Shown here in pieces: positions 9,275 through 57,285 of a DNA stretch of 64,000 bases (the stretch's first letter is position 1; each line of letters begins with the position of its first letter). A program made the translations under genes and the position numbers. The DNA is from Styela clava (Eukaryota; Chordata; Ascidiacea; Stolidobranchia; Styelidae). The stretch is from the NCBI RefSeq assembly GCF_964204865.1, contig NC_135250.1:20141395-20205394 (forward strand). Direction: 5' to 3'. The notes beneath the pieces were generated by a model. It worked only from the letters and a program-made list of their open reading frames with translations, was not told the DNA's origin and ran no database searches.

Positions 9275-10953
9275 ATGCGTTGTTTGATCCTCCTTGCTAT
9301 TTTGAGTACGGCCACGGCCTTGCCACTGAATTTTGGAACTTTCTGTAAGTTTGCTTTATAATTATTGTAATATAGATTATTGTTTAACGCCAAAATACTT
9401 ATTTCTTTCAATCTAGTGGGATGTGGCGACACAGGTACCTCGATATCCGCATCAGCTGTCGCAAAAACTTCGTTTGGTCCATGCGCTGATTTGCAGAAGC
9501 CTGATATTGTCATTGACGATCCATGTGTTGAAGTGAAGAAACCGTACGTGGGGGTTCAATCTCCATGTACCTTTAGACGACCTTGTTTCAGACGAAGCTC
9601 TCCGTGCCGATGTGTTTCCTCGCCGTGCATTACCAGAACAATCACACGTACACCGTGCGTAAGAAGAACCACACCGCCGTGCGTGAGAAGAACCATAACA
9701 CCACCGTGCGTGAGAAGAACCATATCGCCATGCAGGACGATCATGCCACAACCGTGTAGAACTATTACAAGAACGCCATGTGGTTAGTAAACGTTTTCAA
9801 TATATATTTTAGTATTCATACTCATTCCTAATTTACTAAACAAATCTCTTTTTATTATATTTTCAGTGAGACGCTCCTTCAGGTAAGCCAATAAAGTAAC
9901 AACAAAACAATTTTAGTTTCATTCTAGCTATGTTTATATTTTTGATTTCTTACAATATTAATTGCGGAATGAATGTTCAGAACAGGCGAAGTAAAAAAAA
10001 AATAATAAAATTTATACTCAGTTATCCCTGCATCCAAAGAAGACCATGTGTCACGAGAAGAGTCATTAACCCATGCGTCACCATCAAGCAACCGTGCGTA
10101 CCAAAGATAGTTGAAGATCCATGCATCACCGTCGAGCAACCATGCGTACCAACAAAAATTGAAGCGCCATGCTTACCAGTTAGAACCATCGATCCGTGCG
10201 GTATAGTATATTTTTATTTGATTAAAAGATAAGGTTAAATTTGTTATGAATGCATGGTTTGACGTTGATTTATGATGTCTTCAACAATATGGTGTAACTT
10301 TGCACAGTTCATGTATACATTATTTCAACTTGGGCAGGAATTATCTAATCTATCTTTTATTGGACACGTAGTGGACATAACGATCGTTTCAATATTATGT
10401 TGTTGTTGTTGTTCTTTGACACGTTTTTAAAAAGTCGCTTTTCTCTTCGAATACTGGACCAATTGCTTTGAAATTTTCAGTGGTTGAAGATTAATTTTTT
10501 CGCTAGAAGGCTATTACTTCTATTTATTTCAAAATTTTGCGTGAATTCTATGAAATTTGATATTTCGTCTAAAATTTTGCTGTATTATTTTTTATTCATG
10601 GGAACACGGATTTTAGTCAGTGCCATGACTGGCTGTACGTTTTGATTCTGCAAAATTCTTGCTACTGGAAATTCAGAACTTTTTTGAGGGTACCGGTAGC
10701 GTCAAAGGTACCGGTAAGGACTGATTCGCTCTGGTCTGACGTGTCCATATATTTGTGCGTAGCTCTCTTGTTATTTCTATCTTTTTATTTGTGATAAAAT
10801 AAAATAATTACACAAAAATATTTTTGTTCAATAGTTGGTTTCAGTGCGACCGCTTGTGCAAGTGCTTCGGCCTCAACATCAAGCACCTTTGAAACTGACT
10901 GCATCGGAGGAGTAAGCGCTTCTGCAAGCGCTTCTACTTCAAATGATGTATAG
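9275..10953 (+). CDS. Pro-Cys repeat secreted protein, copy 1 (short form)
   Basis: Exons: 9275-9344, 9417-9782, 9867-9882, 10022-10200 and 10835-10953 (TAG). The total is 750 nt, 249 aa. All splice sites are GT/AG and all phases agree. Exon 1 encodes a signal peptide (MRCLILLAILSTATALPL), so the protein is predicted to be secreted. Exon 2 encodes CGDTGTSISASAVAKTSFGP and then Arg-rich Pro-Cys motifs (TPCVRRT, PPCVRRTI). Exon 3 is a 16-nt microexon. Exon 4 encodes PCVPKIVEDPCITVEQ once, where the other copies have 8-9 repeats. Exon 5 is Ala/Ser-rich (TACASASASTSSTF). Nearly every Cys follows a Pro, with a spacing of about 8 residues. I do not recognise a family. The composition suggests a disulfide-crosslinked extracellular structural protein; that is inference. 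Intron 4 holds an interspersed repeat (10361-10772) absent from the other copies. Confidence 0.75.
10361..10772. repeat. interspersed repeat (AATTGCTTTGAAATTTTCAG family) in intron 4 of copy 1
   Basis: This is a member of the commonest short repeat in the window. It starts TTGGACACGTAGTGGACATAA, has the core TGGACCAATTGCTTTGAAAT, and ends ATTTGTGCGTAGCTCTCTTG. The same intron in copies 2-5 lacks it, so the edges can be read by comparison. The ends do not form an obvious terminal inverted repeat. Confidence 0.7.
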
Positions 10954-11467
10954 TTTGAGGTAGAATAAATTTTTTTAGAAAAAACTTGAATATCAAATTG
11001 TCATACAACAACCGCACCTAACTGTTACCGCCCCAACTGTTACACTTAAACTATAAAAAGATTTCACATTATCACATTAATGATGTAATCATACGAGATC
11101 CGATAAAATAAAAAGACAATGAAGGTTACAAAACTCCATTTCTCGATTCCAATAATGTTTATCAATAATTTACCAAAGCAAACTTTACAAAAAAAATCAT
11201 CATTCCTATAGGCTTGAATTCCACAACTTGGTTCGCAGGGTATTTTATTGTCACGAATAAAACAAAACAGTATGCCAAGCACCACTATGTCTGTACTAAC
11301 CACAATGTATATATGTTTATATAACACTCAATATAAACAAATTTTATGAATTCCAGTAATGGTAAAATCAGACCATTAAAAATACCAAACGACAAATTTG
11401 TTTTATTATTTCACGATTTTTTTCAATTTTAGATAGAATTCAATCATAACGATTTATTGTCTTTCAG

Positions 11468-11835
11468 GGTTCAATGAAACGCTGTGTCAACCTCGGGATA
11501 GATAGATGGTGTAAGTAACTAAATCTCAGTGTTTTTGATGCAAGACCCAGGTAGAATTCGAGTTTTAAATTTCACCCCATGAGTGGAAAAAAAAAACTTT
11601 TCTGACAATAGATGAGTATAGAAATAGTTGGCCAGATAAAATTTCTTGAAACGTTCAAATATGATGGTGGTCATGATTCTGGAGACGCCAAATATACAAC
11701 ATCATATTGGTCTTAAGAAAGTTGCCGTTTTATGCACTCGTTAATTAAAAATCTTTTGTTAATTTTTGATTTTTTCTGTTTCTAGGTGGTTCTAGGATAG
11801 ATTCTGTTGAATCCCAGGGAGACAGCTGGAGTTAA
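11468..11835 (+). other. downstream exons 6 and 7 of copy 1 (3' UTR or alternative C-terminus)
   Basis: Exon 6 (11468-11510; TTTCAG before, GTAAGT after) and exon 7 (from 11786, after TTTCTAG) join into one frame, GSMKRCVNLGIDRWC then GSRIDSVESQGDSWS and a stop at 11833-11835. The main frame has already stopped in exon 5 (10951), just before its donor GAG/GTAGAA at 10959/10960. These exons are therefore 3' UTR unless exon 5 is read in another frame. All five units keep both exons and their splice sites. Confidence 0.55.
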
Positions 11836-16786: not shown

Positions 16787-18492
16787 ATGCGTTGTTTGAT
16801 CCTCCTTGCTATTTTGAGTACAGCTACGGCATTGCCACTGAATTTTGGAACTTTCTGTAAGTTTGCTTTATAAATATTGTATAACAGATAATTGTTAAAC
16901 GCCACAATACTTATTTCTTTCAATATAGTGGGATGTGGCGACACAGGTACCTCAGTATCCGCATCAGCTGTCGCAAAAACATCGTTTGGTCCATGCGCTG
17001 AATTGCAGAAGCCTGACATTGTCATCGATCCGTGTGTTGAAGTGAAGAAACCGTCTGTAGAGGTAAAATCTCCATGCACCTTTACAAGACCTTGTTTCAG
17101 ACGAAGCTTTATGCGCCGACGTGTTTCCTCGCCGTGCTTTACTAGAACAATCACACGCACACCGTGCGTAAGAAGAACCGTAACACCACCGTGCGTTAGA
17201 AGAACCATAACATCACCTTGTGTGAGAAGAACCATAACACCTTGCGTGAGAAGAACCATATCGCCTTGCAGGACGATCATTCCACAACCGTGTAGAACTA
17301 TTACAAGAACGCCATGTGGTTAGTAAACGTTTTCAATATATATTTTAGTATTTATACTCATTCCTAATTTACTAAACAAATCTATTTTTATTATATTTTC
17401 AGTGAGACGCTCCTTCAGGTAAGCCAATAAAGTAATAATAAAACAAATTTTTGTTTCATTCTAGCTATGTTTATATTTTTGATTTATTTCAATACTAATT
17501 ACAGAATGAATGTTAAGAACAGGCGAAGTAAAAAAAAATTATTGATATTTATACTCAGTTATCCCTGCATCCAAAGAAGACCATGTGTCACGAGAAGAGT
17601 CATTAACCCATGCGTCACCATCAAGCAACCGTGCGTACCAAAGATAGTTGAAGATCCATGCATCACCACCTTCGAGCAACCATGCGTACCAAAGACAGTT
17701 GAAGATCCATGCATCACCACCTTCGAGCAACCATGCGTACCAAAGATAGTTGAAGATCCATGCATCACCACCTTCGAGCAACCATGCGTACCAAAGATAG
17801 TTGAAGATCCATGCGTACCAAAGATAGTTGAAGATCCATGCATCACCACCTTCAAGCAACCATGCAAACAAAAGATAATTGAAGATCCATGCATCACCAC
17901 CTTCGAGCAACCATGCGAACCAAAGATAGTTGAAGATCCATGCATAACCACCTTCGAGCAACCATGCCAACCAAAGATAGTTCAAGATCCATGCATCACC
18001 GTCGAGCAACCATGCGTACCAACAAAAATTGAAGCGCCATGCTTACCAGTTAGAACCATCGATCCGTGCGGTAATGTATATTTTTATTTGATTGAAAGAT
18101 AAGGTTTAATTTATTATGGATACATGGTTTGACGTTGATTTAGGATGTTTTCCATAATACGGTGTAACTTCGCACAGTTCATGTATACATTATTTTAACT
18201 TGGGCGAGAATTATCACATTCTATCTTCTATTATTTATATCCTTTTATTTGTGATAAAATAAAACAATTTCACATGTTCACATAATATTTATGTCCAATA
18301 GTTGGTGTCCGTGCGACCGCTTGTGCAAGTGCTTCGGCTTCAACATCAAGCACTTTTGGAACTGGCTGCAACGGAGGAGTGAAAGCTTCTGCAGGCGCTT
18401 CTGCTTCAACATCAAGCACTTTTGGAACTGGCTGCATCGGAGGAGCAAGAGCTTCTGCAGGCGCTTCTGCTTTCCATCATACTCTATTTTAA
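16787..18492 (+). CDS. Pro-Cys repeat secreted protein, copy 2
   Basis: Exons: 16787-16856, 16929-17318, 17403-17418, 17559-18070 and 18302-18492 (TAA). The total is 1179 nt, 392 aa, with all phases consistent. The signal peptide is as in copy 1. Exon 2 has one more PCVRRT motif than copy 1 and lacks one Asp codon (VIDPC instead of VIDDPC). Exon 4 carries seven full 17-residue repeats of type PCVPKIVEDPCITTFEQ plus a truncated PCVPKIVED unit, then PCVPTKIEAPCLPV. The mRNA repeat is 51 nt. The exon 5 tail contains the block ASASTSSTFGTGC twice. The block order is Arg-rich, then mixed acidic/basic, then Ala/Ser/Gly. No enzymatic motif is visible. A secreted structural, disulfide-linked protein is my inference. 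Confidence 0.77.
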
Positions 18493-23865: not shown

Positions 23866-25478
23866 TAGGGATGTAAGTTTCGAATATTTTATTTCCGAAT
23901 CTGATTCTATTTAGTATAACCTCACATTATCGTTAATTTTATTTAAATTTGGAAGAACTATAGCGCAAATTGTGATAAAATGACAATAACGAACTTGAAG
24001 AAAGAGTTAATTAAGTTAGTTGAAGAGCACATTGAATTGATACTTCAACTACATAATGTAGTAGAGAATATATATTTTGTTACATAGAGTTACACTCAGG
24101 TAAAATTACTTATTACATGAATTTATGTTCGCAAACAATACCGGATCGTTTCTTCTAAAATTCACCTTCAAAATTCATCCAAATGATAAACGCCATTGGA
24201 ATATGCGATGGAACCGATTGGCCGTGAAAGAAAGCAAATGATAACTAGAGCTACGTGCAGCTTTAACAGGCTTCCCGCGTAAAAAAAACTGAAGACGCGT
24301 TTTGCTCACTGGAGCTTGAAAGCGTGGTCAGTCATGCATAAAATTTGCAATTTATGATGGGGGACTTATTATCTGCATGTGATGTAAATTTCATGTCTCT
24401 AAGTAGTGTCGTTCTTGAGAAGAAGATGAAAATGTAAAATCCTATATTGCTCACTGGAGCGTATCGCCAAGGTCACTCATGCGTATCCTTGACATATCGT
24501 ATCCGGAACATGTCCATTAATCATTGTTATGAATTCCAACCCAATAGCATGTATCAATTTTGAGAAATCGCAAAAAAACTGAAAACGCATTTTGCTCACT
24601 GGAGCGTGAAAGCGTGGTCAGTCATGCATAAAATTTGCAAATTATGATGGGGAAATTATTGTCTGCATGTGATGTAAATTTCAAGTCTCTAAGTAGTGTC
24701 GTTCTCGAGAAAAAGATGAAAATGTAAAATCCTATATTGCTCACTGGAGCGTATCGCCGAGGTCACTCTTGCGTATCCTTGACATATTGTATCCGGAACA
24801 TGTCCATTAATCATTGTTATAAATTTCAACCCAATACCATGTATCAATTTTGAGAAATCGCAAAAAAACTGAATACGCGTTTTGCTCACTGGAGCGTGAA
24901 AACTTTTATTGCTAGCTGAGAACTTCTGCACATTTGAGGTGAATTTCAAGTTTGTAGGACCAATTTGAAACAAAAATAATAAAAATAAATAATAATAAAT
25001 AATAAATATTAATAAATAATAATAATAAAACACAGGAATACAATAGGTTCCCTGCTGACAAGCAGCGGGAAGCCTAACAAGGGAAGCATCGCAGACCTAT
25101 GTTTTTAGTGAGAAATAATGTTGTTATTATAATGACATTACATATGTAATTTAAAAAAAGTTTATAAAATTATATATTGGTAAAACTTCTTAAATTTTTG
25201 AATAGTAAAAAAAATAAACGAAATATTGGTTCCTATGAAGCTGTGATCCATAGGAAATATTACGGAGTGTTACGAATTGCAAACGCTGTAAACGTGGGGA
25301 AAATAAACGCTTTTGGTCGATTATGAGACAACACCTATGCATCGTGCAATCGCCTCGTGTTATCTTAATTATTATTATCTTTTTAAATCAATCAAGCTGC
25401 TTTTTATCAAATTGCTTCGAATGAATTCGAATTGATATTGATTCGCTTCGATTCAAAATTCTTAAACTTACATCCCTA
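23866..25478. mobile_element. hAT-type MITE with TAGGGATGTAAGTTT ends (unit 3), interrupted
   Basis: Perfect 15-bp terminal inverted repeats (TAGGGATGTAAGTTT / AAACTTACATCCCTA) are flanked by an 8-bp duplication TCCATATG (23858-23865 and 25479-25486). Unit 1 has a single TCCATATG at the matching site (near 8317-8324), i.e. the empty target. The element would be about 780 bp without the rolling-circle element inserted at 24243-25075. No transposase coding is seen. Confidence 0.85.
24243..25075. mobile_element. non-autonomous Helentron-like element (unit 3)
   Basis: It starts AACTAGAGCTACGTGCAG with AGGCTTCCCGC nearby, and ends with a hairpin (TTCCCTGCT-GACA-AGCAGCGGGAA) and GCGGGAAGCCT. The AGGCTTCCCGC / GCGGGAAGCCT pair is an 11-bp inverted repeat of the two ends. 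Inside are about two tandem copies of a 290-bp repeat (TTTGCTCACT at 24301, 24591 and 24881) and an AAT microsatellite (24975-25028). Unit 4 has the near-empty site GCAAATGATGACAAGGGAAG, so insertion occurred without target duplication. Its sequence matches the flanks of the coding element in unit 5, its likely source of transposition proteins. Confidence 0.75.
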
Positions 25479-26197: not shown

Positions 26198-26204
26198 TAT
26201 ATAA
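26198..26204 (+). promoter_or_regulatory. TATA box of copy 3
   Basis: TATATAA lies about 100 bp upstream of the copy 3 start codon, within the upstream block conserved in all units. Confidence 0.6.
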
Positions 26205-26300
26205 CAAGTTTGCGTGAGCTTGAGATCCCATACAGCTTTCATTGACGATATAAAACCATTTTCTCTCCAGCAGGATCGAAACTAAAATTATAACGTCAAC

Positions 26301-28080
26301 ATGCGTTGTTTGATCCTTCTTGCTATTTTGAGTACGGCTACCGCCTTGCCACTAAATTTTGGAACTTTTTGTGAGTTTGCTTTATAATTATTGTATTATA
26401 GATTATTGTTTAACGCCACAATACTTATTTCTTTCCATATAGTGGGATGTGGCAACACAGGTACCTCGGTATCCGCATCAGCCGTCGCAAAAACTTCGTT
26501 TGGTCCATGCGCTGAATTGCAGAAGCCTAACATTGTCATCGACGATCCGTGTGTTGAAGTGAAGAAACCGTCCGTAGAGGTAAAATCTCCATGCACCTTT
26601 ACACGACCTTGTTTCAGACGAAGCTTTATGCGCCGACGTGTTTCCTCGCCGTGCTTTACTAGAACAATCACACGCACACCGTGCGTAAGAAGAACCGCAA
26701 CACCACCGTGCATTAGAAGAACCATAACATCACCTTGTGTGAGAAGAACCATAACACCGTGCGTGAGAAGAACCATATCGCCTTGCAGGACGATCATTCC
26801 ACAACCGTGTAGAACTATTACAAGAACGCCATGTGGTTAGTAAACGTTTTCAATATATATTTTAGTATTTTTACTCATTCCTAATTTACTAAACAAATCT
26901 ATTTTTATTATATTTTCAGTGAGGCGCTCCTTCAGGTAAGCCAATAAAGTAATAATAAACAAATTTTTGTTTCATTCTAGCTATGTTTAAATTTTTGATT
27001 TATTTCAATACTAATTACAGAATGAATGTTAAGAACAGGCGAAGTAAATTTTTTTTTTTAATATTTATACTCAGTTATCCCTGCATCCAAAGAAGACCAT
27101 GTGTCACGAGAAGAGTCATTAACCCATGCGTCACCATCAAGCAACCGTGCGTACCAAAGATAGTTGAAGATCCATGCATCACCACTTTCGAGCAACCATG
27201 CGAACCAAAAATAGTTGAAGATCCATGCATCACCACCTTCAAGCAACCATGCGAACCAAAGATAGTTGAAGATCCATGCATCACCACCTTCGAGCAACCA
27301 TGCGTACCAAAGACAGTTGAAGATCCATGCATCACCACCATCCAGCAACCGTGCGTACCAAAGATAGTTGAAGATCCATGCATCACCACCTTCGATCAAC
27401 CATGCGAACCAAAGATAGTTGAAGATCCATGCATCACCACCTTCGAGCAACCATGCGTACCAAAGATAGTTGAAGATCCATGCATCAACACCTTCGAGAA
27501 ACCATGCGAACAAAAGATAGTTGAAGATCCATGCATCACCGTCGAGCAACCATGCGAACCAAAGATAGTTCAAGATCCATGCATCACCGTCGAGCAACCA
27601 TGCATACCAACAAAAATTGAAGCGCCATGCTTACCAGTTAGAACCATCGATACGTGTGGTAATGTATATTTTTATTTGATTGAAAGATAAGGTTTAATTT
27701 GTTATGGATACATGGGTTCACGTTGATTTAAGATGTTTTCCATAATATGGTGTAACTTTGCACAGTTCATGTCTACATTATTTTAACTTGGGTGAGAATT
27801 ATCACATTCTATCTTCGATTATTTATATCCTTTTATTTGTGATAAAATAAAACAATTTCACATGTTCACATAATATTTATGTCCAATAGTTGGTGTCCGT
27901 GCGACCGCTTGTGCAAGTGCTTCGGCTTCAACATCAAGCACTTTTGGAACTGGCTGCAACGGAGGAGTCAAAGCTTCTGCAGGCGCTTCTGCTTCAACAT
28001 CAAGCACTTTTGGAACTGGCTGCATCGGAGGAGCAAGAGCTTCTGTAGGCGCTCATGCTTTCCATCATACTCTATTTTAA
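26301..28080 (+). CDS. Pro-Cys repeat secreted protein, copy 3
   Basis: Exons: 26301-26370 (donor GTGAGT), 26443-26835, 26930-26945, 27075-27658 and 27890-28080. The total is 1254 nt, 417 aa, phases consistent. It has a signal peptide, an Arg-rich Pro-Cys block, then seven 17-residue and two 16-residue Pro-Cys repeats with small variations (PCEPK, PCVPK, PCEQK), and an Ala/Ser/Gly tail. Peculiar to this copy are CGNTG in place of CGDTG at the start of exon 2, CINTFEK in the seventh repeat, and IDTC rather than IDPC at the end of exon 4. The exon 1 and 5' intron variants (ACCGCCTTGCCACTA) are shared with copy 5. Confidence 0.77.
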
Positions 28081-40273: not shown

Positions 40274-40630
40274 ATCGTAAATAAGTCTTGGATGTCCAGT
40301 TGCTGATAAGTAAAAAAAATATCTATTTAACTCGCTTTCCCAACAGTGACATGTAACTCAATTCTTTTACTTACCGGGTGTCCTAGGATTCAATTATTTA
40401 TTTCTGAACTAGGCAAAATATTCAGTCAATCTACATTAAATTTAATCAGATAAGTCAATTGATTATCATTGCCTTTTCATAATGACACAAGAAAAAGCAG
40501 TAGGTTGTATTGCATTGACTAAACCCAGGCAAATGTCGCCATAAATGCTCCTTTTCCACAACTAAACAAACATGTAATAAACACGGGTGATTCCCTTTAA
40601 AGTATTTTCCAATTTGATAGTTTAACTAAC

Positions 40631-41391: not shown

Positions 41392-41601
41392 GTGTAAAGC
41401 AAATTCGCCCAATTTTACATTGATGTTATACAGTGCAATGATGACAAGGTATTCTTTGTCAATGCAAATAGCAGGAAAAATCATGTAGCAAATTACAGCA
41501 GTCCAATAGGCATCCACTTTCCAAAAATGTTATTCGAAGGAAAACTAAGAATAAATATCAGCCTCTATTTCTCAAGCAAAAAGTGGAAACTTACTGGGAA
41601 T

Positions 41602-41820
41602 TCATTCTAAACAGCTGATCATTGATTTTCCAAAGTCACCGAGGCGCAACGCTGCGGTATATAAAGAATGATCAATATTTTGTGATATTGGAAACATGAA
41701 ACGTTCCAATCGGTACATCATTTTGAACCTGTAGCCCACTGTCGTAAAACTGCATTTCAGATGGTTACCAGTATCTAAATTTACATTTAAGGATGTTACA
41801 TTTGGCGACGATATTCCCAT
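41602..41820 (-). pseudogene. truncated copy of TPR-gene 5' exons (unit 5)
   Basis: It has the same exon and the same fused, out-of-frame end as units 3 and 4. Confidence 0.6.
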
Positions 41821-41971
41821 ACTACGATTATTGTAACAGAAATTGTTTGTTGTTACTTACGGATAATCGACAAACGCTTATCTAAAAATATACACAAAAC
41901 TTTTTTCCGAATCAGAATATATTTCGCGTCCTGTATTTATTTCCATCCACTTATTTGACGCATTCTTTTTT

Positions 41972-42143
41972 TTATTCCCTAGGCTCGGCGGTTGGCACTG
42001 GGCGCACCTGATTACCAAGCCTGAGTTCTCCGGTTTTGGTTAATTGTGTGCGAGAAGATTGCTGGACTCCCTTCCCACTGTCGCAAGGGGGTTCACGTAA
42101 CCAGTGTTCGGCAACGGCTTCCTCCACCACCAAGTACATGTAT
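41972..42143 (-). pseudogene. copy of the antisense terminal exon (unit 5)
   Basis: It keeps the acceptor, open frame and stop equivalent to 8244-8058. Confidence 0.35.
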
Positions 42144-42598
42144 CTGAAACAAGTAACTGGTTAACTATTCCCATACCCAGAATGAATTGAAAACCGGACG
42201 GGAGGTCGTAGTAATCCATATGTAGGATGTAAGTTTCGAATATTTTATTTCCGAATCTGATTCTATTTAGTATAACCTCACATTATCGTTAATTTTATTT
42301 AAATTTGGAAGAACTATAGCGCAAATTGTGATAAAATAACAATAACGAACTTGAAGAAAGAGATAATTAAGTTAGTTGACGAGCACATTGAATTGATACT
42401 TCAACTACATAATGTAGTAGAGAATATGTATTTTGTTACATAGAGTTACTCTCAGGTAAAATTACTTATTACATGAATTTATGTTCGCAAACAATACCGG
42501 ATCGTTTCTTCTAAAATTCACCTTCAAAATTCATCCAAATGATAAACGCCATTGGAATATGCGATAGAACCGATTGGCCGTGAAAGAAAGCAAATGAT

Positions 42599-43885: not shown

Positions 43886-43886
43886 T

Positions 43887-44655
43887 AACTAGAGCTGCGT
43901 GCAGCTTTAACAGGCTTCCCGCGTAAAAAAAACTGAAGACGCGTTTTGCTCACTGGAGCGTGAACGCGTGGTCAGTCATGCATAAAATTTGCAATTTATG
44001 ATGGGGGACTTATTATCTGCATGTGTTGTAAATTTCAAGTCTCTAAGTAGTGTCGTTGTCGAGAAGAAGATGAAAATGTATAATCCTATATTGCTCACTG
44101 GAGCGTATCGCGGAGATCACTCATGCGTATCCTTGACATATCGTATCCGGAACATGTCCATTAATCATTGTTATGAATTTCAACCCAATAGCATGTATCA
44201 ATATTGAGAAATCTCAAATAAACTGAAGACGCGTTTTGCTCACTGGAGCGTGAAAGCGTAGTCAGTCATGCATAAAATTTGCAATTTATGATGGGGGACT
44301 TATTATCTGCATGTGATGTAAATTTCAAGTCTCTAAGTAGTGTCGTTCTCGAGAAGAAGATGAAAATGTAAAATCCTATATTGCTCACTGGAGCGTATCG
44401 CCGAGGTCACTCATGCGTATCCTTGACATATCGTATCCGGAACATGTCCATTAATCATTGTTATGAATTTCAACCCAATAGCATGTATCAATTTTGAGAA
44501 ATCGCAAAAAAACTGAAAACGCGTTTTGCTCACTGGAGCGTGAAAGCGTGGTCAGTCATGCATAAAATTTGCATTTTTTTGCTAGCTGAGAACTTCTGCA
44601 CATTTGAGGTGAATTACAAGTTTGTAGGACCAATTTGAAAAAAAAATAATAAAAA

Positions 44656-44903: not shown

Positions 44904-45092
44904 AATTAAGCTAACGACGCAGTAAGCGAGAGAAGCAAACACGCGAGGAAAAAACGCATCGCGATAAGCGCTCTCTTTGATAAGACGATCGACGAAAGGA
45001 TAATAATTCATTCCTTTGCAGAAATCGTTGTTGACAGCACTTTCTGGAATTGGTTGCTAACTAATACGGTATAACTATTATTGTGCGTAGAA

Positions 45093-48000
45093 ATGCCACG
45101 AAAAAGATACTGGAAAATGGCGCTTAAACGCCTTGCTCTTAAGGTGGTTACTGGTGAATTCAGCCAGTCTGATGCTAGATTTAACTTCTCCAGCCGTGGA
45201 CGACAATGCATTGCAAACTGCCTGATTGCGCTTATCAAGCACGCCAATACTCGTGCAACTTTATGGCGTTCAAATGATTTGGATGAAATTCTCGTAGAAG
45301 GCGACAAACTATATCGTGGGGTCCAAGACTTTTTGGGTTATATTGACAACTATCTCATGGTCACAGAGTTGCCCTCAACTTATGAGTTGAACGACGTACT
45401 GTACGAAATAAAGTACCAGAGCCCATTAACTGGTGCCGTTGGTTCGTCAGAAGCACCGTCCGAACATATGGTTGGCATAATGTCGCTTGCAGATGCTCTT
45501 GCAGAGACGTTTAGTAGCAGCGTATGTGCTCTCTTTACGCTGAACAGCAACACATTGGGAATAATCAAGGACGAATCGACGTACTTTGTTTTTGATCCTC
45601 ATTCTCGTAATAGAGATGGTATGGTGTGCTATAATGGCACGTCAATTACGCTTGAATTTGGGTGTTTAGATGACATTCATTGTCACCTTCAAATACTACA
45701 CCGAAATATCTCGCCCTCGGAGGATTTTGCTTGTCAGTTTGAAATGGTCGCCGTCGAAATCACCCAGGTTGTTGCTGGAAATGACACAGATGTGGTACAA
45801 GAAGTTAAAAGTACTCAACACGAGATGCTTTTTTCTAGACTAAACTATGCCACAAGATTTGACATTTGTAAAAAACTGGGATTGAAAATCGAATTGTTAA
45901 TAGATGAAAATCCAATCAACGAACGACTGAACAAACCTGCAAAAGTTGTTTCAGTCAAGGCAGACGGAAATTGCTTTTTCAATGCGTTATCTCATGAGCT
46001 GTCCGGAACTGAACACAATAACGCACAACTTAGGCAAGCAATTGCGCAAAATATCGAAGAAAATCCATGCGTCTTTTCAAATATTTTGCGCGATGAATAC
46101 GCGGAAGATGGGGTTGAGAATTATATCAAACAGTCCAAGATGTTTGATGACGGCACGTGGGCAACAGAAGTGGAAATATTTTCTGCTTGTGACTTACTGG
46201 CATTAGACATATACACGTATTTTGAAAACACGTGGCTGAAGTATTCCAGAGCGTTACTGAATCGCAATTACGTTACGCATTCAAGGGGATCGATATATTT
46301 AAATAACAAAGGTGGAAATCATTATGAAATTGTTACGGACGTCAAGAGTTGGCAGAATGGCGATGATGAGGGGGATCCGGCCATGGTTACTCAGCACGAA
46401 GTTACGAGAAATACCGAATGGTATGAGGTGGGACACATAGAAAAGCAAACAACATCAAGTATGAGTGAAGCCGATATGCGCTATGAATTATGTGAAGAAT
46501 ATCGAGAGAATGTGAAAAAAAGTAGCAGGCGAAGGTATAAAACCGATCAAAACTACAACGAAAAATCAAATTTGAGAAGCTCAGCAAAATATAAATATAA
46601 TGAAAGCCACAGAGAAGCATTAAAGACAAGAAGCGTAAAGAAATACGAAACTGACGTACAACACAGAGAAAAGGTAATAGCTAGCAATATTCAGAAGTAC
46701 CATCTCGATGACAAATACAGGAAGCAAGTAAAAACCAGAAGTGCTGAGCAGTACAAACTTGACGAAAAACACAGGGAACAAATGAAAGCCAGAAGTGTCA
46801 AGAAATACAAACATGACGAAAAACACAGGGAGAGAATGAAAACTAGAAGCGTGAAGCAGTACAAACTTGACGAAAAACACAGGGAGCAAATGAAAGCCAG
46901 AAGTGTCAAGAAATACAAACATGACGAAAAACACAGGGAGAGAATGAAAACTAGAAGCGTGAAGCAGTACAAACTTGACGAAAAACACAGGGAGCAAATG
47001 AAAGCCAGAAGTGTCAAGAAATACAAACATGATGAAAAACACAGGGAGAGAATGAAAACTAGAAGCGTGAAGCAGTACAAACCTGACGAAAAACACAGGG
47101 AGCAAATGAAAGCCAGAAGTGTCAAGAAATACAAACATGACGAAAAAAACAGGGAAAGAATGAAAACTAGAAACGTGAAGCAGTACAAACTTGACGAAAA
47201 ACACAGGAAGCAAGTAAAAACCAGAAGTGCTGAGCAGTACAAACTTGACGAAAAACACAGGAAGCAAGTAAAAACCAGAAGTGCTGAGCAATACAAACTT
47301 GACGAAAAACACAGGAAGCAAATGAAAGCCAGAAGTGTCAAGAAATACAAACATGACGAAAAACACAGGGAGAGAATGAAAACTAGAAGCGTGAAGCAGT
47401 ACAAACATGACGAAAAACACAGGGAGCAAATGAAAGCCAGAAGTGTCAAGAAATACAAACATGACGAAAAACACAGGGAGAGAATGAAAACTAGAAGCGT
47501 GAAGCAGTACAAACTTGACGAAAAACACAGGAAGCAAGTAAAAACCAGAAGTGCTGAGCAGTACAAACTTGACGGAAAACACAGGAAGCAAGTAAAAACC
47601 AGAAGTGCTGAGCAATACAAACTTGACGAAAAACACAGGGAGCAAATGAAAGCCAGAAGTGTCAAGAAGTACAAACATGACGAAAAACACAGGGAGCAAA
47701 TGAAAGCCAGAAGTGTCAAGAAGTACAAACATGACGAAAAACACAGAGAGAGAATGAAAACTAGAAGCGTGAAGAAATACGATCTTGACGAACTACACAG
47801 GCAGGAAGTTAAAACCAGGAGTGCCAATATGTACAGATTTGATGCAAAACATAACCAACGTGTCAGAAACGTAGCTCAAAAGAAATACTGGTGCAGTAAA
47901 CGCGATATGTCAGCTAAAAATTCTATTGAAAAATTCAGAAAGTCGATAAAATGTGGACCAGATTGCGTATGCTGCATATGCATTCGATCGTTTTTCCGTA

Positions 48001-50135
48001 AAAGCGTTATCGTATACAAAAGAAAAAAGTATAAATGCGGGAACATCAGTACAAAATATAAGCACAAATGTAACACTTTTTGCACGAAGCCCTGTGGATT
48101 TGTTAACGCAAGAAATATTTGGATATGTCATACTTGTAGCAGCAAACTCAAGAGTGGTAAAGTTCCTGTCAAAGCGTGGGACAACAACATGCTTGTAGAG
48201 GAAGTTCCGCCCGAGTTAGCGAGACTAAACTCAATTGAGCGCCATCTAATCTCGCTACATATTCCTTTCATGAAAATAAGTCAGTTGCCCAAAACTCGCC
48301 AATACGGAATTCATGGTCCAGTGATATGTGTACCTTCCAATGTCCAAAAAACGGTTACCGTCCTACCACGGGTGAGAGTGGATGACCAAATGTTGACAAT
48401 TAAACTAAAAAGAAAACTTTCATACAAGGGTTACTATGATTACCAAGTTGCAGATAAAGGTAACCTAAGGGACGCCATCATGTGGTTAAAAGAGAATAAT
48501 GATTTTTACACTGATGTAACGTTTAACGAAATCTGGAATCCTGACATAAACCTACGTGAAGAGGAGGAAGATGAAGAACTGTTGGAGGCACCTTCCGAAG
48601 ATGTTATTATATCAGATGCCACTCTTGACACTTGCTTGCAACCTGTAGATATTGCTCAAGAAGTTTTAGACCAAATTTCCGAAGACGTTCTGTGCATTGC
48701 TCCCGCTGAAGGGAACCGCCCAATTTCAATATTGATGGATGACAAAAATGAAGCCAAAGCTTTTCCAACACTCTTTCCCTCAGGCCGTGGGACCTTTGGC
48801 GCATTTCGGGACGAACAAATTACTTTATCGAGATATATTAATTGTCGTTTGATGAGTGCTGATGATCGATTTTCGAAAAACGTAGATTACATATTCTTCT
48901 CACAGTATAGGAGTGAACTCAATCAAATTTTATCAAACATTTCAATTGCATTGCGCAAAGGAACTGATTCTTCAATTCGAAAAATGACTATTAAGGATAT
49001 AACAGATGGAAAATATATTCGGTCACTATTAACATCAGATGGGGCATACAAATTTTTAAGACCTGTCAGAGGGACACCAGCATTCTGGCAGGCCGCGCAG
49101 AAAGACCTATTGGCAATGGTCCGCCAGCTTGGATTGCCGACTTGGTTTTGCTCTTTTTCGTCCGCGGAAATGAGATGGCCGGAAGTTTTTGACTGTTTGC
49201 TTCGTCAAAGGGGTGATAAGCGTTTGTCATCAGAAATCGATTGGTTGGAAAAATGTCAAATTCTACGCGAAAACTGTGTGATGACTGCCAGACTTTTTCA
49301 AAATCGGTTTCAGAGTTTCTTGAGAAATATTATACTTTCTTCATGTAAACCTCTTGGAGAAGTGGAAGATTATTTCTTTAGGGTAGAGTTCCAACAACGC
49401 GGATCCCCTCACATTCACTGCCTCTTGTGGGTGAAAGATTCCCCGAAATACGGGGTCAACAGCAACGCGGAGGTTGAAGCATATATAGATAGGCACGTAA
49501 CTTGTCAGATTCCACAAGAGCATGAAGACAAAGAACTCTTTGACATAGTTAATAGTGTACAACAGCATAGTAAATCCCACACCAAATCGTGCCGGAAGAA
49601 AGGCACTGTGTGTAGATATGGTTTTCCCAGGCCACCTTCTTCCAGGACGTTTATAGCTCAGTGTGACCAAGGTATTGCTGCAGATGATTTGGCCATTGTC
49701 AAGGCCAAGGATATATTAAAAAAAATAATGTCACACATCTTCAATGAAAAATGGCAATGTGCTGAGGATGCAAATTTAGCGAAACTGCTTAAAGAGTTGA
49801 ACATAACTCAGGACGATATCGAAATGTCGTGCAGGATGATCACAAAGAAGGTTTCGGTGATATTACAAAGAGAATGTAGTAGCATATGGACTAATCCACA
49901 TAACCCTACATTGCTGCGGGCCTGGAACGCTAATTTGGATGTGCAATTTGTAACGGATGCATATGCATGTGTAGTTTATATTCTATCCTATATTTCTAAG
50001 GGAGAGAGAGAAATGAGCTTTCTAATGGAAGGATGCGTTAACGAATGCTTGAACCAAGGCCATCATTCTGCAAGGGACGTTATGAAAAAGATTGGGATGT
50101 TGTATTTGAGAAACAGGGAAGTGAGTGCACAGTAG
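45093..50135 (+). CDS. Helentron protein, first part: protease-like, OTU, basic repeats, HUH Rep
   Basis: 1680 aa from the ATG at 45093. Residues about 25-215 (RGRQCIANCLIALIKHA, LDEILVEGDKLY) resemble the tegument-protease-like (C76-type) domain found in other Helitron proteins. Residues about 283-420 form an OTU cysteine protease: ADGNCFF with Cys near 294 and GNHYE near the end. About 24 copies of an 18-residue Lys/Arg/Tyr-rich repeat (KYKHDEKHREQMKARSVK) follow, alternating as 36-residue dimers. A Cys-rich segment (CVCCICIRSFF, CHTCSSKL) precedes the Helitron N-terminal/Rep region, with HIH at 1440-1442 (RGSPHIHCLLWV) and two tyrosines at 1629 and 1633 (YILSYISKG), the nuclease active site. 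The frame ends at TAG; seven codons later in the same frame comes the ATG of the helicase part. Confidence 0.88.
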   Translation: MPRKRYWKMALKRLALKVVTGEFSQSDARFNFSSRGRQCIANCLIALIKHANTRATLWRSNDLDEILVEGDKLYRGVQDFLGYIDNYLMVTELPSTYELNDVLYEIKYQSPLTGAVGSSEAPSEHMVGIMSLADALAETFSSSVCALFTLNSNTLGIIKDESTYFVFDPHSRNRDGMVCYNGTSITLEFGCLDDIHCHLQILHRNISPSEDFACQFEMVAVEITQVVAGNDTDVVQEVKSTQHEMLFSRLNYATRFDICKKLGLKIELLIDENPINERLNKPAKVVSVKADGNCFFNALSHELSGTEHNNAQLRQAIAQNIEENPCVFSNILRDEYAEDGVENYIKQSKMFDDGTWATEVEIFSACDLLALDIYTYFENTWLKYSRALLNRNYVTHSRGSIYLNNKGGNHYEIVTDVKSWQNGDDEGDPAMVTQHEVTRNTEWYEVGHIEKQTTSSMSEADMRYELCEEYRENVKKSSRRRYKTDQNYNEKSNLRSSAKYKYNESHREALKTRSVKKYETDVQHREKVIASNIQKYHLDDKYRKQVKTRSAEQYKLDEKHREQMKARSVKKYKHDEKHRERMKTRSVKQYKLDEKHREQMKARSVKKYKHDEKHRERMKTRSVKQYKLDEKHREQMKARSVKKYKHDEKHRERMKTRSVKQYKPDEKHREQMKARSVKKYKHDEKNRERMKTRNVKQYKLDEKHRKQVKTRSAEQYKLDEKHRKQVKTRSAEQYKLDEKHRKQMKARSVKKYKHDEKHRERMKTRSVKQYKHDEKHREQMKARSVKKYKHDEKHRERMKTRSVKQYKLDEKHRKQVKTRSAEQYKLDGKHRKQVKTRSAEQYKLDEKHREQMKARSVKKYKHDEKHREQMKARSVKKYKHDEKHRERMKTRSVKKYDLDELHRQEVKTRSANMYRFDAKHNQRVRNVAQKKYWCSKRDMSAKNSIEKFRKSIKCGPDCVCCICIRSFFRKSVIVYKRKKYKCGNISTKYKHKCNTFCTKPCGFVNARNIWICHTCSSKLKSGKVPVKAWDNNMLVEEVPPELARLNSIERHLISLHIPFMKISQLPKTRQYGIHGPVICVPSNVQKTVTVLPRVRVDDQMLTIKLKRKLSYKGYYDYQVADKGNLRDAIMWLKENNDFYTDVTFNEIWNPDINLREEEEDEELLEAPSEDVIISDATLDTCLQPVDIAQEVLDQISEDVLCIAPAEGNRPISILMDDKNEAKAFPTLFPSGRGTFGAFRDEQITLSRYINCRLMSADDRFSKNVDYIFFSQYRSELNQILSNISIALRKGTDSSIRKMTIKDITDGKYIRSLLTSDGAYKFLRPVRGTPAFWQAAQKDLLAMVRQLGLPTWFCSFSSAEMRWPEVFDCLLRQRGDKRLSSEIDWLEKCQILRENCVMTARLFQNRFQSFLRNIILSSCKPLGEVEDYFFRVEFQQRGSPHIHCLLWVKDSPKYGVNSNAEVEAYIDRHVTCQIPQEHEDKELFDIVNSVQQHSKSHTKSCRKKGTVCRYGFPRPPSSRTFIAQCDQGIAADDLAIVKAKDILKKIMSHIFNEKWQCAEDANLAKLLKELNITQDDIEMSCRMITKKVSVILQRECSSIWTNPHNPTLLRAWNANLDVQFVTDAYACVVYILSYISKGEREMSFLMEGCVNECLNQGHHSARDVMKKIGMLYLRNREVSAQ
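46600..47860 (+). repeat. 54-bp coding minisatellite in the Helentron protein
   Basis: About 24 tandem units of 54 bp encode an 18-residue basic repeat. Two unit types (REQMKARSVKKYKHDEKH and RERMKTRSVKQYKLDEKH) largely alternate, giving a 108-bp higher-order period; a third type (RKQVKTRSAEQYKLDEKH) occurs in pairs. Outer units are more diverged than inner ones, consistent with expansion from the middle. Confidence 0.85.
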
Positions 50136-50156
50136 TCGGCATTCAGAGCTTGCAAT

Positions 50157-53030
50157 ATGCCTTTAAAAGGATGTTCACGAAACGTAGTGTTTTTACCAAC
50201 TGGGGGTAATTCTGTAAAAATAAGCTTGCCATTGTCAGTGCTAAAAAATAAGTTGAAAGCAAGTGGCGGCGAGCTCAACCCGTCTGATATGTGGATGACA
50301 AGTATGATAGAAAAATATAGGGCAAGGCCAAGACAACAGGAAATAGACGAAGTATGCTATGGTGAGTTTTTTTCAAGATATCGCGTATTGTCACAAACAC
50401 AGGCGAAAGGAAATAAAAAAGCTCTGGAACTGGAAAAAGAATTAGGTCATGTACAAAAGAGAGAAACAACTCAACCCGCAATAGTTCGATACCCCCGTTT
50501 TCGTAAAGAAAAAAATAGTGAAAAATATTATCGAAGTATATTGGAACTTTTTTTCCCACACCGAACCGACGAAGATCTGAAGCCGCTTTATTACAAAAAT
50601 TATACAGAATTTTACAAATTTGGCAAGTGCTCGGTTCATGGTCGAAGCATGAATGTAAAAGAGCTCGTGACAGAAAATATGCGGAAGTTTGAAAATATAC
50701 GCGAAGAACTTTCGGAAGCCGGAAATATGTTAGCTGATGAACAGCTTTCACAAGATGAGTGGGCTGATCTAATAACAGAGCTCCAACAGCGTACTCGTGA
50801 CGAGGGTAGAGACAGCAACGTAATACACACTGTTGAAGACGAGCAGGAATGTGATGATATACCTGATCTCCATCAGACGACAAGCGAGATCACATTCGTA
50901 AAAAATGTTTTTATTAGTAAAGAGGAAGCCTTGCCAATCCTAAGATTTCTCAACGAAATGCAAACTGAGGTTTTTTACGCGATTCGACAATGGTGTGTAA
51001 AAAAAGCAAATGGAAAAAATCCAGATCCATTTCATCTTTTTATATCTGGCGGAGCTGGAACCGGGAAATCACATTTAGTGAAAGCAATTTATTACGAGAC
51101 ATCCAAGGTGCTCGCCAACAGAGCAGAAGACATTTCTCAAATCCGAGTATTACTGACCGCTTCCACTGGCGTTGCAGCATACAATATCAAAGCCACAACA
51201 ATACACAGTACATTTAGCATCCCAGTACAAGCGACAATTCCATACAGACCACTTGCAGAAGAAAAACTCAACACCTTGAAATGCAGGTATGAAAATTTGG
51301 AATTATTGATCATTGATGAGATATCAATGGTCGATTACAAATTATTATCATATATTCACGGAAGATTACGCCAAATAAAAAGCGCAAGCGATGAGTTTCC
51401 ATTTGGCAAAGTAAGCATAATTGCAGTAGGGGATTTCTATCAACTTCCTCCGGTTAAAGCATCCCCGTTGTTCAAGCCAAATCCGTTGGGCGATCTATGG
51501 AATGGTTATTTTAAGCTAGTAGAGCTTAACGAAATTATGAGGCAAAAGGGCGATAAAAAATTTGCAGAAATGCTTAATCGTATACGCACAAAGAAAAAAG
51601 GCGAGATAATGAACGCATGTGATATTTCGATGCTCTCTCAGCGTGAAACTGGTGAAACAAAATCAGATATCATCCACATTTACCCAACAAACGCTCAAGT
51701 GAATGAATTCAACTTGAAACGTCTTCTTTCTCTTGATAAGGAAATAGTAGAAATAGCTGCTGATGTTTTAACTCCCACGTCAGAAAATCGCTCATCCAGT
51801 TGTCGGACATATATACCAATGGGTCAATTGCAAAAGACTTTGAAATTTTCTGTTGAGGCTAGGGTAATGTTGCTACGCAAAATTGATGCAACCGATGGAC
51901 TTGTTAACGGTGTAATTGGTACCATTGTGAGCATTCACCGCGCAGAAGGTACAATTGAAGTAGATGTCATCCATGTCCGATTTGACGACCATCGTGTTGG
52001 CGCCGCATTGAGAATAAGATCAAAATGCAGATATGAGGACGGCGTTCCTATCACAAAAGTCGAAGATTCATTTTCAGGCCGCGGCAGTTACAAACAGTTT
52101 CCCCTTAAACTGTCGTGGGGATGCACTATTCATAAAATGCAAGGTGTTACAGTGGACGCAGCTCTCGTTGACTTCAAAAAAGCCTTTAGAGCTGGTCAAA
52201 TGTATGTCGCGCTCAGTAGGGTGAGATGTGTTCAGAATCTCATCATAGAAAATTTCAGGGAAAGCGCTATATATTGCGACGAAGGAATTGAAAGTGCCAT
52301 GTCAAAAATGTCTCGATTTTTACCTGAAAAATGCAAAATATTTGATAATATCGATATTATATTAAAAATATGTTTGATAAATATTCAAGGATTACGTGCA
52401 CATTGGGAAGACTTGATGAGTGATTCCCGGTTTACAGAATGCAACGTTATTTGCTTGACTGAAACGCACGGAATCTGCTCACTTCAATCTTCTGTTTTTA
52501 ATATCGTAATTCGAAACAGAAGTGAATGCTATGATAAAAACGATGATTTTTTCGGACAATTTAAAACAAAAAAGCAAGGGGGAGTTGGATTTTTGCTTCG
52601 AAGCGAATTGAAAGTGAGGGTGATGGACATTGAAGTTCTAAACCTGGAATTTTTATGCCTTCTGCTCGTCGAAAAAGATACCGTATTAGTGAGTATTTAC
52701 AGGCCGCCATCTTATCCTTTGTCAAAATTTAGCAATGCGTTAAAGATTTTGTTAAAAGAACTTGCAAATCTGGATATGGACTGTCTCATAATGGGCGATT
52801 TCAATGAAGATCTGTTGGCTGACAATAAATGTATCGAGCAGATGTTCAGCATTGCTGGCTTTACTCAGGTTGTTCACTCTTACACCACAGACGGGTGTAC
52901 TCTTTTGGATCACGTGTACATAAAAATAAAAACATGTAAAGTAACTGTAGAATCATTGCCGACGTATTATAGCTACCATAATGGTATTCGAATAGCTTTG
53001 AGTTTCGTCCCAGTCCCCGTTTCACCCTAA
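50157..53030 (+). CDS. Helentron protein, second part: PIF1-like helicase and endonuclease-like domain
   Basis: 957 aa from the ATG at 50157, in the same frame as the first part. The helicase has Walker A GGAGTGKS at residues 298-305, Walker B IIDEIS (Asp387, Glu388), VGDFYQLPPV, and near 655-685 GCTIHKMQGVTVDAALVDF with YVALSRVR, the superfamily 1 PIF1/RecD signature. From about residue 736 an endonuclease/exonuclease/phosphatase-like domain follows: ICLINIQGLRAHW, TETHG, SIYRPP, MGDFNED (near 880) and LLDHVY. The last catalytic SDH motif of this family reads SYH (939-941), so the nuclease may be impaired. The start chosen may be artificial: codons between the TAG at 50133 and this ATG are open and fit the family. 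Confidence 0.88.
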   Translation: MPLKGCSRNVVFLPTGGNSVKISLPLSVLKNKLKASGGELNPSDMWMTSMIEKYRARPRQQEIDEVCYGEFFSRYRVLSQTQAKGNKKALELEKELGHVQKRETTQPAIVRYPRFRKEKNSEKYYRSILELFFPHRTDEDLKPLYYKNYTEFYKFGKCSVHGRSMNVKELVTENMRKFENIREELSEAGNMLADEQLSQDEWADLITELQQRTRDEGRDSNVIHTVEDEQECDDIPDLHQTTSEITFVKNVFISKEEALPILRFLNEMQTEVFYAIRQWCVKKANGKNPDPFHLFISGGAGTGKSHLVKAIYYETSKVLANRAEDISQIRVLLTASTGVAAYNIKATTIHSTFSIPVQATIPYRPLAEEKLNTLKCRYENLELLIIDEISMVDYKLLSYIHGRLRQIKSASDEFPFGKVSIIAVGDFYQLPPVKASPLFKPNPLGDLWNGYFKLVELNEIMRQKGDKKFAEMLNRIRTKKKGEIMNACDISMLSQRETGETKSDIIHIYPTNAQVNEFNLKRLLSLDKEIVEIAADVLTPTSENRSSSCRTYIPMGQLQKTLKFSVEARVMLLRKIDATDGLVNGVIGTIVSIHRAEGTIEVDVIHVRFDDHRVGAALRIRSKCRYEDGVPITKVEDSFSGRGSYKQFPLKLSWGCTIHKMQGVTVDAALVDFKKAFRAGQMYVALSRVRCVQNLIIENFRESAIYCDEGIESAMSKMSRFLPEKCKIFDNIDIILKICLINIQGLRAHWEDLMSDSRFTECNVICLTETHGICSLQSSVFNIVIRNRSECYDKNDDFFGQFKTKKQGGVGFLLRSELKVRVMDIEVLNLEFLCLLLVEKDTVLVSIYRPPSYPLSKFSNALKILLKELANLDMDCLIMGDFNEDLLADNKCIEQMFSIAGFTQVVHSYTTDGCTLLDHVYIKIKTCKVTVESLPTYYSYHNGIRIALSFVPVPVSP

Positions 53031-53389: not shown

Positions 53390-54010
53390 AAAAACTGAAA
53401 ATTATGCTATGTGCACTGGAGCGTGAAGCCGTGATCAGTCATGCATTAAGTCTGCAATTTATGATGGGGGACTTATTATCGGCATGTGATGTAAATTTCA
53501 AGTCTCTAAGTAAGGTCGTTCTCGAGAAGAAGATGAAAATGTAAAATCCTATATTGCTCACTGGAGCGTATCGCCGCGGTCACTCATGCGTATCCTTGAC
53601 ATATCGTATCCGGAACATGTCCATTAATCATTGTTATGAATTTCAACCCAATAGCATGTATCAATTTTGAGAAATCGCAAAAAAACTGAAAACGCGTTCT
53701 GCTCACTGGAGCGTGAAAGCGTGGTCAGTCATGCATAAAATTTGCAATTTATGATGGAGGACTTAATATCTGCATGTGATGTAAATTTCAAGTCTCTAAG
53801 TAGTGTCGTTCTCGAGAAGAAGATGAAAATGTAAAATCCTATATTGCTCACTGGAGCGTATCGCCGAGATCACTCATGCGTATCCTTGACATATTGTATC
53901 CGGAACATGTCCATTAATCATTGTTATGAATTTCAACCCAATAGCATGTATCAATTTTGAGAAATCGCAAAAAAACTGAAGACGCGTTTTGCTCACTGGA
54001 GCGTGAAAGC
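53390..54010. repeat. 290-bp tandem repeats at the 3' side of the Helentron
   Basis: The copies share TTTGCTCACTGGAGCGTGAA, GGTCAGTCATGCATAAAATT and CATATCGTATCCGGAACATG at about 290-bp spacing; the first copy (from 53390) is diverged. The same repeat fills the non-autonomous elements at 24243, 42599 and 43887. Confidence 0.75.
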
Positions 54011-54120
54011 GTGGTCAGTCATGCATAAAATTTGCATTTTATTGCTAGCTGAGAACTTCTGCACATTTGAGGTGAATTTCAAGTTTGTAGGACCAATTTG
54101 AAAAAAAAATAATAAAAATA

Positions 54121-54153
<33 letters not shown>

Positions 54154-55409: not shown

Positions 55410-55416
55410 TATATAA
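55410..55416 (+). promoter_or_regulatory. TATA box of copy 5
   Basis: TATATAA lies about 100 bp upstream of the copy 5 ATG, in a flank nearly identical to that of copy 3. Confidence 0.6.
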
Positions 55417-55512
55417 CAAGTTTGCGTGAGCTTGAGATCCCATACAGCTTTCATTGACGATATAAAACCATTTTCTCTCCAGCAGGATCGAAACTAAAAT
55501 TATAACGTCAAC

Positions 55513-57285
55513 ATGCGTTGTTTGATCCTTCTTGCTATTTTGAGTACGGCTACCGCCTTGCCACTAAATTTTGGAACTTTTTGTAAGTTTGTTTTATAAT
55601 TATTGTATTATAGATTATTGTTTAACGCCACAATACTTATTTCTTTCCATATAGTGGGATGTGGCGACACAGGTACCTCGGTATCCGCATCAGCCGTCGC
55701 AAAAACTTCGTTTGGTCCATGCGCTGAATTGCAGAAGCCTAACATTGTCATCGACGATCCGTGTGTTGAAGTGAAGAAACCGTCCGTAGAGGTAAAATCT
55801 CCATGCACCTTTACACGACCTTGTTTCAGACGAAGCTTTATGCGCCGACGTGTTTCCTTGCCGTGCTTTACTAGAACAATCACACGCACACCGTGCGTAA
55901 GAAGAACCGCAACACCACCGTGCATTAGAAGAACCATAACATCACCTTGTGTGAGAAGAACCATAACACCGTGCGTGAGAAGAACCATATCGCCTTGCAG
56001 GACGATCATTCCACAACCGTGTAGAACTATTACAAGAACGCCATGTGGTTAGTAAACGTTTTCAATATATATTTTAGTATTTATACTCATTCCTAATTTA
56101 CTAAACAAATCTATTTTTATTACATTTTCAGTGAGGCGCTCCTTCAGGTAAGCCAATAAAGTAATAATAAACAAATTTTTGTTTCATTCTAGCTATGTTT
56201 AAATTTTTGATTTATTTCAATACTAATTACAGAATGAATGTTAAGAACAGGCGAAGTAAATTTTTTTTTTTAATATTTATACTCAGTTATCCCTGCATCC
56301 AAAGAAGACCATGTGTCACGAGAAGAGTCATTAACCCATGCGTCACCATCAAGCAACCGTGCGTACCAAAGATAGTTGAAGATCCATGCATCACCACTTT
56401 CGAGCAACCATGTGAACCAAAAATAGTTGAAGATCCATGCATCACCACCTTCAAGCAACCATGCGAACCAAAGATAGTTGAAGATCCATGCATCACCACC
56501 TTCGAGCAACCATGCGTACCAAAGACAGTTGAAGATCCATGCATCACCACCATCAAGCAACCGTGCGTACCAAAGATAGTTGAAGATCCATGCATCACCA
56601 CCTTCGATCAACCATGCGAACCAAAGATAGTTGAAGATCCATGCATCACCACCTTCGAGCAACCATGCGTACCAAAGATAGTTGAAGATCCATGCATCAC
56701 CACCTTCGAGCAACCATGCGAACAAAAGATAGTTCAAGATCCATGCATCACCGTCGAGCAACCATGCGAACCAAAGATAGTTCAAGATCCATGCATCACC
56801 GTCGAGCAACCATGCATACCAACAAAAATTGAAGCGCCATGCTTACCAGTTAGAACCATCGATCCGTGCGGTAATGTATATTTTTATTTGATTGAAAGAT
56901 AAGGTTTAATTTGTTATGGATACATGGGTTCACGTTGATTTAAGATGTTTTCCATAATATGGTGTAACTTTGCACAGTTCATGTCTACATTATTTTAACT
57001 TGGGTGAGAATTATCACATTCTATCTTCGATTATTTATATCCTTTTATTTGTGATAAAATAAAACAATTTCACAATAATATTTATGTCCAATAGTTGGTG
57101 TCCGTGCGACCGCTTGTGCAAGTGCTTCGGCTTCAACATCAAGCACTTTTGGAACTGGCTGCAACGGAGGAGTCAAAGCTTCTGCAGGCGCTTCTGCTTC
57201 AACATTAAGCACTTTTGGAACTGGCTGCATCGGAGGAGCAAGAGCTTCTGCAGGCGCTCATGCTTTCCATCATACTCTATTTTAA
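55513..57285 (+). CDS. Pro-Cys repeat secreted protein, copy 5
   Basis: Exons: 55513-55582, 55655-56047, 56132-56147, 56287-56870 and 57095-57285. The total is 1254 nt, 417 aa. It has the signal peptide, Arg-rich Pro-Cys block, seven 17-residue plus two 16-residue repeats and Ala/Ser/Gly tail of copies 3 and 4. It is closest to copy 3 in exon 1 and the upstream flank. The eighth repeat reads KIVQDPC rather than KIVEDPC, and exon 2 has VSLPC where others have VSSPC. All splice sites are intact, so the copy looks functional despite the large transposon complex about 1.2 kb upstream of its start. Confidence 0.77.

Follow-up and report, generated by a model that had tools for sequence, protein, structure and literature searches.

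Five tandem genes for Pro-Cys repeat proteins

We analysed a window of 64,000 nucleotides (contig C1, positions 20141395-20205394) from a genome that we searched over 376.6 Mb and 379 contigs. Between positions 9275 and 57285 of the window lie five tandem genes, here called g1 to g5, for repetitive Cys-rich proteins with a signal-like N-terminus in which most Cys residues directly follow a Pro. All five are on the forward strand, are intact and have five exons each. The gene models, rebuilt directly from the DNA, are listed below; each has GT-AG joins and an open frame.

g1: 9275-9344, 9417-9782, 9867-9882, 10022-10200 and 10835-10953, forward strand; 249 amino acids, AATAAA at 10964
g2: 16787-16856, 16929-17318, 17403-17418, 17559-18070 and 18302-18492, forward strand; 392 amino acids
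g3: 26301-26370, 26443-26835, 26920-26935, 27075-27658 and 27890-28080, forward strand; 417 amino acids
g4: 35055-35124, 35197-35589, 35674-35689, 35829-36412 and 36637-36827, forward strand; 417 amino acids
g5: 55513-55582, 55655-56047, 56132-56147, 56287-56870 and 57095-57285, forward strand; 417 amino acids

Exon lengths modulo 3 run 1, 0, 1, 2, 2 in all five models with no internal stops, and the splice sites of g2-g5 are homologous to those of g1. The first-pass annotation of this DNA had described five intact five-exon genes with matching phases, and the rebuilt models agree with it in every copy; the joins it had proposed for g1 (9344/9417, 9782/9867, 9882/10022 and 10200/10835) are exact in the DNA and are all GT-AG. 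An AATAAA lies within 700 nt past the stop codon of each gene. The annotation had also claimed signal peptides and TATA boxes. The N-terminus MRCLILLAILSTATALPL is common to the five proteins and was judged by inspection to be a typical signal peptide; the hydrophobic N-terminal sequence MRCLILLAILSTATA is likewise present in all five, with a best 10-residue Kyte-Doolittle mean of 2.70 as computed on g1. A putative TATA-like box, read by eye, occurs ~103 nt upstream of the ATG in every copy, and a second TATAAA-like site is found ~50 nt upstream of the ATG in four of the five, g2 being the exception. An ungapped repeat search returned five copies each of the upstream/exon-1 block and of the exon blocks. 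The span of 9275-57285 that had been given for the array holds for these five copies, and two likely relatives, g6 and g7, sit past its end.

9172..9177, forward strand: TATA-like box of g1
~16684, ~26198, ~34952 and ~55410, forward strand: homologous TATA-like boxes of the other copies

Pro-Cys pairs account for 20 of the 25 Cys residues in g1, 33 of 38 in g2, 35 of 41 in both g3 and g4, and 36 of 41 in g5. Shuffling g5 10,000 times gave 5.0 pairs on average and never more than 13, compared with the 36 observed. Within the repeat body most Cys-to-Cys spacings are 7-9 residues, and the earlier statement that nearly every Cys stands after a Pro at ~8-residue spacing was borne out, with 20-36 pairs per protein. 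The repeats fall into two charge blocks in g3-g5, an N-terminal basic block of PCVRRTIT-type repeats with 29 positive and 5 negative residues and a C-terminal acidic block of PCxPKIVED-PCITTFEQ repeats with 14 positive and 30-31 negative residues. The blocks of g2 resemble these, with charges of 29/5 and then 13/24. Of the two, the acidic block is longer in g2-g5, and its repeat, the cleanest, was detected with a tandem repeat finder as follows.

27132..27610, forward strand: 51-bp (17-residue) tandem repeat in exon 4 of g3, unit PCxPKIVED-PCITTFEQ
17616-18022, 35886-36364 and 56344-56822, forward strand: like arrays in other copies

Units of the PCxPKIVED type number 1, 8, 9, 9 and 9 in g1 to g5. 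The tail of g2-g5 is short and of an Ala/Ser/Gly type with Gly-Cys, and that of g5 contains one Lys and no Gln. If the signal is taken as 16 residues, g3-g5 each carry 40 Cys past it. A secretion-type signal, as judged by inspection, is thus combined with a repetitive Cys-rich body, as expected of secreted Cys-rich structural matrix proteins. Trp is absent from g1-g5 and Tyr and His are rare, so that DOPA chemistry like that of mussel glue is unlikely on the basis of composition. The peptide IVEDPCITTFEQPCEPK is a sample of these chains.

Self-comparison of the window identified two direct copies of a whole duplication unit of ~8.75 kb each, which include g3 and g4 and are 97.5% identical over 8791 columns.

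25077-33822, forward strand: first copy of the duplication unit
33824-42598, forward strand: second copy of the duplication unit

The shortest and most diverged gene is g1, with a synonymous divergence (dS) of 0.13-0.16 and 88-90% amino acid identity to the other copies. The ratio of nonsynonymous to synonymous divergence (dN/dS) is 0.16-0.53 in nine of the ten pairs among g1-g5, and the description of tandem, intact genes for a secreted-type Pro-Cys repeat protein stands, with constraint in these nine pairs. The nearest copy differs by intron. At intron 1, g2 is closest to g4 (98.6%) and g3 is closest to g5 (97.2%), while intron 3 is identical across g3, g4 and g5. We read this pattern as probable gene conversion or unequal crossing over among the copies.

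Resemblance to Cornifin/SPRR and other proteins

The first-pass annotation knew of no named family with this layout. This has to be revised, as the Pfam model Cornifin (SPRR, PF02389) passes its cut-off for g2 and g5, though other SPRR features fail. The scan covered g1, g2, g5, g6 and g7, with g3 and g4 outside it, and two of these five proteins, g5 at 52.7 bits and g2 at 49.0 bits, exceed the gathering cut-off of 34.8 bits. Scores of 11.1 bits for g1 and 21.0 bits for g6 fall under the cut-off, and g7 has no Cornifin match. Two shuffles of g5 that kept the Pro-Cys pairs gave no match and 11.1 bits, respectively, and reversed g5 gave no Cornifin match; the score therefore needs the actual letters and not the spacing alone.

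SPRRs are cytosolic proteins of the amniote skin complex, are encoded by one coding exon, and are cross-linked by transglutaminase via Gln/Lys end domains. Similar to SPRRs, the proteins described here have Pro-Cys repeats of 8-9 residues. Contrary to SPRRs, which lack a signal peptide, all five have a hydrophobic, signal-like N-terminus by inspection, all five DNA-based models have five coding exons with conserved phases, and the host is a tunicate (see below); g2-g5 differ further in their basic and acidic blocks and in the Ala-Ser tail. That these genes are true Cornifin/SPRR members, encoding a transglutaminase-linked barrier protein with relatives reaching back to tunicates, would explain the scores of g2 and g5 and the failure of the shuffled and reversed controls. 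Given the scores of g1, g6 and g7, the signal-like N-terminus and the exon structure, we consider membership quite improbable. Because of the predicted secretion, the five exons and the tunicate host, we favour convergence. The genes would then resemble SPRRs by convergence and might perhaps work in an SPRR-like manner, and we do not file them as members.

Weak matches to the Paramecium surface antigen model (PF01508) were seen for g1 (E 0.017, 16.0 bits), g2 (E 0.049, 14.5 bits) and g5 (E 0.66, 10.9 bits). All are under the 21.2-bit cut-off, and we take them for chance similarity. Searches of PDB and NCBIfam gave nothing useful, and no relative was found in the viral contigs searched. A description of this Pro-Cys family was not found among the open-licence papers listed on Pro-Cys silk and matrix proteins, silk-gland proteins, insect Cornifin and the tunic and adhesive proteins of ascidians, supplements lying outside the search.

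Described tunicate proteins offer partial parallels. According to a study of the house proteome of the appendicularian Oikopleura (PMC3390340), about half of 80 proteins have no domains or similarity, and gene duplication is the source of almost a third. The oikosins, as these house proteins are called, are external-coat proteins of a tunicate and, like g1-g5, of a secreted type; compared by description, they differ in carrying named modules such as EGF, CCP and lectin, among others. The main text of PMC3390340 was searched for words beginning "proline", and there were none. Rusticalin (PMC6339383), from the ascidian Styela rustica, is secreted, repetitive and rich in Cys, features also predicted for g1-g5; it differs by description in its motif, Cx6Cx6-7Cx8Cx7CC, and in a C-terminal domain that is peptidase-like.

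A proposed disulfide-set material and its alternatives

The signal-like N-terminus, the repeat chemistry, the amplification and the constraint in most pairs are seen in the DNA, and the assembly, the cross-linking and the tissue are inferred. We lean towards reading these genes as a tunicate family of structural proteins that are secreted. In this proposal, the secreted chains would associate via their oppositely charged blocks, disulfides between the evenly spaced Cys residues would then fix the chains, and the product would be an insoluble, tough layer or a glue. Multiple gene copies would increase the output, and the amplification is probably for dose. The tunic, the egg coat and an adhesive are candidate sites, with none favoured. 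The likeness to the repeats of SPRR barrier proteins is consistent with a structural role, as are g6 and g7, which lie on the same strand, begin with a hydrophobic stretch and combine Pro-Cys repeats with runs of Ser/Ala. The Oikopleura coat proteins of PMC3390340, about half without known relatives and almost a third from duplication, fit a structural role without proving it. A shotgun study of ascidian tunics (PMC7401272) describes the tunic as made up mainly of structural proteins.

Several observations weigh against this proposal. The charge-block design breaks down in g1, where the second block is short and carries almost no net charge (+4/-5). The number of Cys residues past the signal is odd in g2, at 37, and the predicted model of the repeat is low in confidence. 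The pair of g3 and g5 has a dN/dS of 1.42, from 2 synonymous and 9 other changes, so that constraint is not visible in the newest pair. In comparisons with the neighbouring genes (see below), g1 and g7 score 121, below the shuffle maximum of 123, and two of the three pairs that pass do so narrowly.

Other explanations of the same repeats were considered. A rigid, disulfide-braced beta-solenoid or cross-beta fibre, in which the 17-residue unit would form two short strands and the Cys residues would be stacked along the fibre, seems rather unlikely to us. We regard as unlikely that the proteins are precursors of Arg-rich, Cys-bearing defence peptides, from which PCVRRTIT units would be excised to kill microbes. 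The strongly basic N-terminal block (+29/-5 in g2-g5) fits such a precursor, and immune genes are often tandemly amplified. However, inspection by eye revealed no cutting pattern of the linker type, the RR pairs lying inside the repeats; in g2-g5 the acidic block, which has the cleanest repeat, exceeds the basic one in length; and nine of the ten pairs have a dN/dS below 0.6. The copies are set among repeats and a Helitron, as would be expected if they were a decaying or silent tandem repeat that merely resembles a gene family, but all five are open with intact joins and dN is lower than dS in nine of the ten pairs, which makes decay hardly credible.

A broader form of the structural proposal is possible but doubtful, namely a family of Pro-Cys polyampholytes, secreted by tunicates, that self-assemble through their opposite charges and are locked by disulfides into a covering or glue; should g6 and g7 be kin, it would comprise at least seven genes over ~97 kb. 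If true, the family would count as an invention of chordates, one that arrived separately at the Pro-Cys octapeptides known from the SPRR skin proteins of vertebrates. The proteins that give the tunicate coat, the egg envelope and adhesives their cohesion seem poorly known, and a compact cluster with a clear repeat code supplies candidates. If the proteins are structural, they would also provide a simple sequence design for disulfide-set materials and a striking convergence with the SPRR repeats of the vertebrate skin barrier.

Neighbouring genes, spacer elements and host markers

The flanks of the window, 40 kb to the left and 80 kb to the right, were scanned for open stretches holding three or more Pro-Cys pairs. 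By this measure no further Pro-Cys gene was found in the 40 kb on the left, and two more genes, g6 and g7, were found on the right side and on the same strand as g1-g5.

C1:20239892-20241649 (L036:4498-6255), same strand: g6, six exons, 306 amino acids, PCETKVVV repeats and a Ser/Ala tail
C1:20246526-20247851 (L039:1132-2457), same strand: g7, four exons, 249 amino acids, Ser/Ala stretches and PCVRR/PCVTR repeats

The joins of both models are GT-AG; each has a hydrophobic N-terminus and, upstream, a TATA-like box, and the cluster from g1 to g7 extends over ~97 kb. A tail domain is common to g6 and g7 (Smith-Waterman score 62; the highest of 1000 shuffles reached 40), as is the motif DF[KQ]LP[ED]V...SASA; over their full length the two proteins score 119, and the best of 200 shuffles that kept the Pro-Cys pairs reached 101. 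The tail domain, LxVxGxxWxC ... RACxK, is a possible search handle for the family. The comparison with the array covered four pairs, g1 and g5 each against g6 and g7, leaving out g2-g4. Three exceed all 200 Pro-Cys-keeping shuffles (score/maximum: g5-g7 138/132, g5-g6 153/133 and g1-g6 156/150). We conclude that g6 and g7 are likely diverged relatives of g1-g5, a weak kinship indicated mainly by layout and neighbourhood.

In a genome search with g5, the best 100 of 3326 candidates were scored, and the copy count is thus a lower bound. Among the matches listed, the only close copies are g1-g5 (21 exon hits), and there are four weak repeat hits on contig C280; g6 and g7 are not among these matches.

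The step from g4 to g5, at 20.5 kb, is much widened because a Helitron outside the gene family sits there.

45075..53030, forward strand: Helitron between g4 and g5, with Helitron_like_N, PIF1 and endonuclease domains

The Helitron consists of two open stretches in one frame with a stop between them. The first holds Helitron_like_N, DUF6570, a Herpes_teg_N-like region near the start and a 54-bp coding repeat present ~20 times; the PIF1 helicase and endonuclease domains are in the second. Tandem units of 290 bp, about two copies each, occur in three spacers, at 24282-24901, 43926-44577 and 53414-54042, the latter two flanking the Helitron. A 276-amino-acid open frame at 5530-6360 of the window, on the reverse strand, is TPR-like by eye, with no Pfam match at E 0.001.

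The host was identified from markers elsewhere in the genome. The sole GH6 match in a genome profile search, at 35.4 bits, is on contig C9. Within a 10 kb piece around it (L063), Cellulose_synt scores 28.3 bits (cut-off 24.7) at 2338-3162 and Glyco_hydro_6 scores 42.4 bits (cut-off 27) at 4995-5279 on the same strand. Tunicates have an external coat of cellulose and protein, and a cellulose synthase fused with or beside GH6 is a tunicate hallmark. The two in one locus therefore mark the host as a tunicate, and a host with such a covering suits the coat material suggested by the first-pass annotation. A search for COX1 gave no hit. At its start, contig C1 carries a TTAGGG-type repeat, with CCCTAACCCTAA counted 77 times over 6 kb. 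Homeobox hits number 105, and 18 of the 20 that were examined have a homeodomain readable by the pattern used; typed by eye, these include posterior Hox-like and many Not-like ones, and the Hox-type homeodomains have what we take to be a deuterostome look. Arthropod silk was dropped as a candidate on the strength of the TTAGGG-type repeat, these Hox-type homeodomains and the CesA/GH6 locus.

A further open frame, at L063:6970-7512, lies downstream of the matches to cellulose synthase and GH6; it includes a run rich in glycine, and its end, SDSCKCIDD, bears Cys. The Not-like homeodomains (..QQRYLVG.., ..NNQQYMVG..) are numerous and closely similar, occurring in L043-L050 (C16:13.97-14.52 Mb), L052, L053, L060 and L061, and by eye the set looks as if a single homeobox type had expanded in this lineage.

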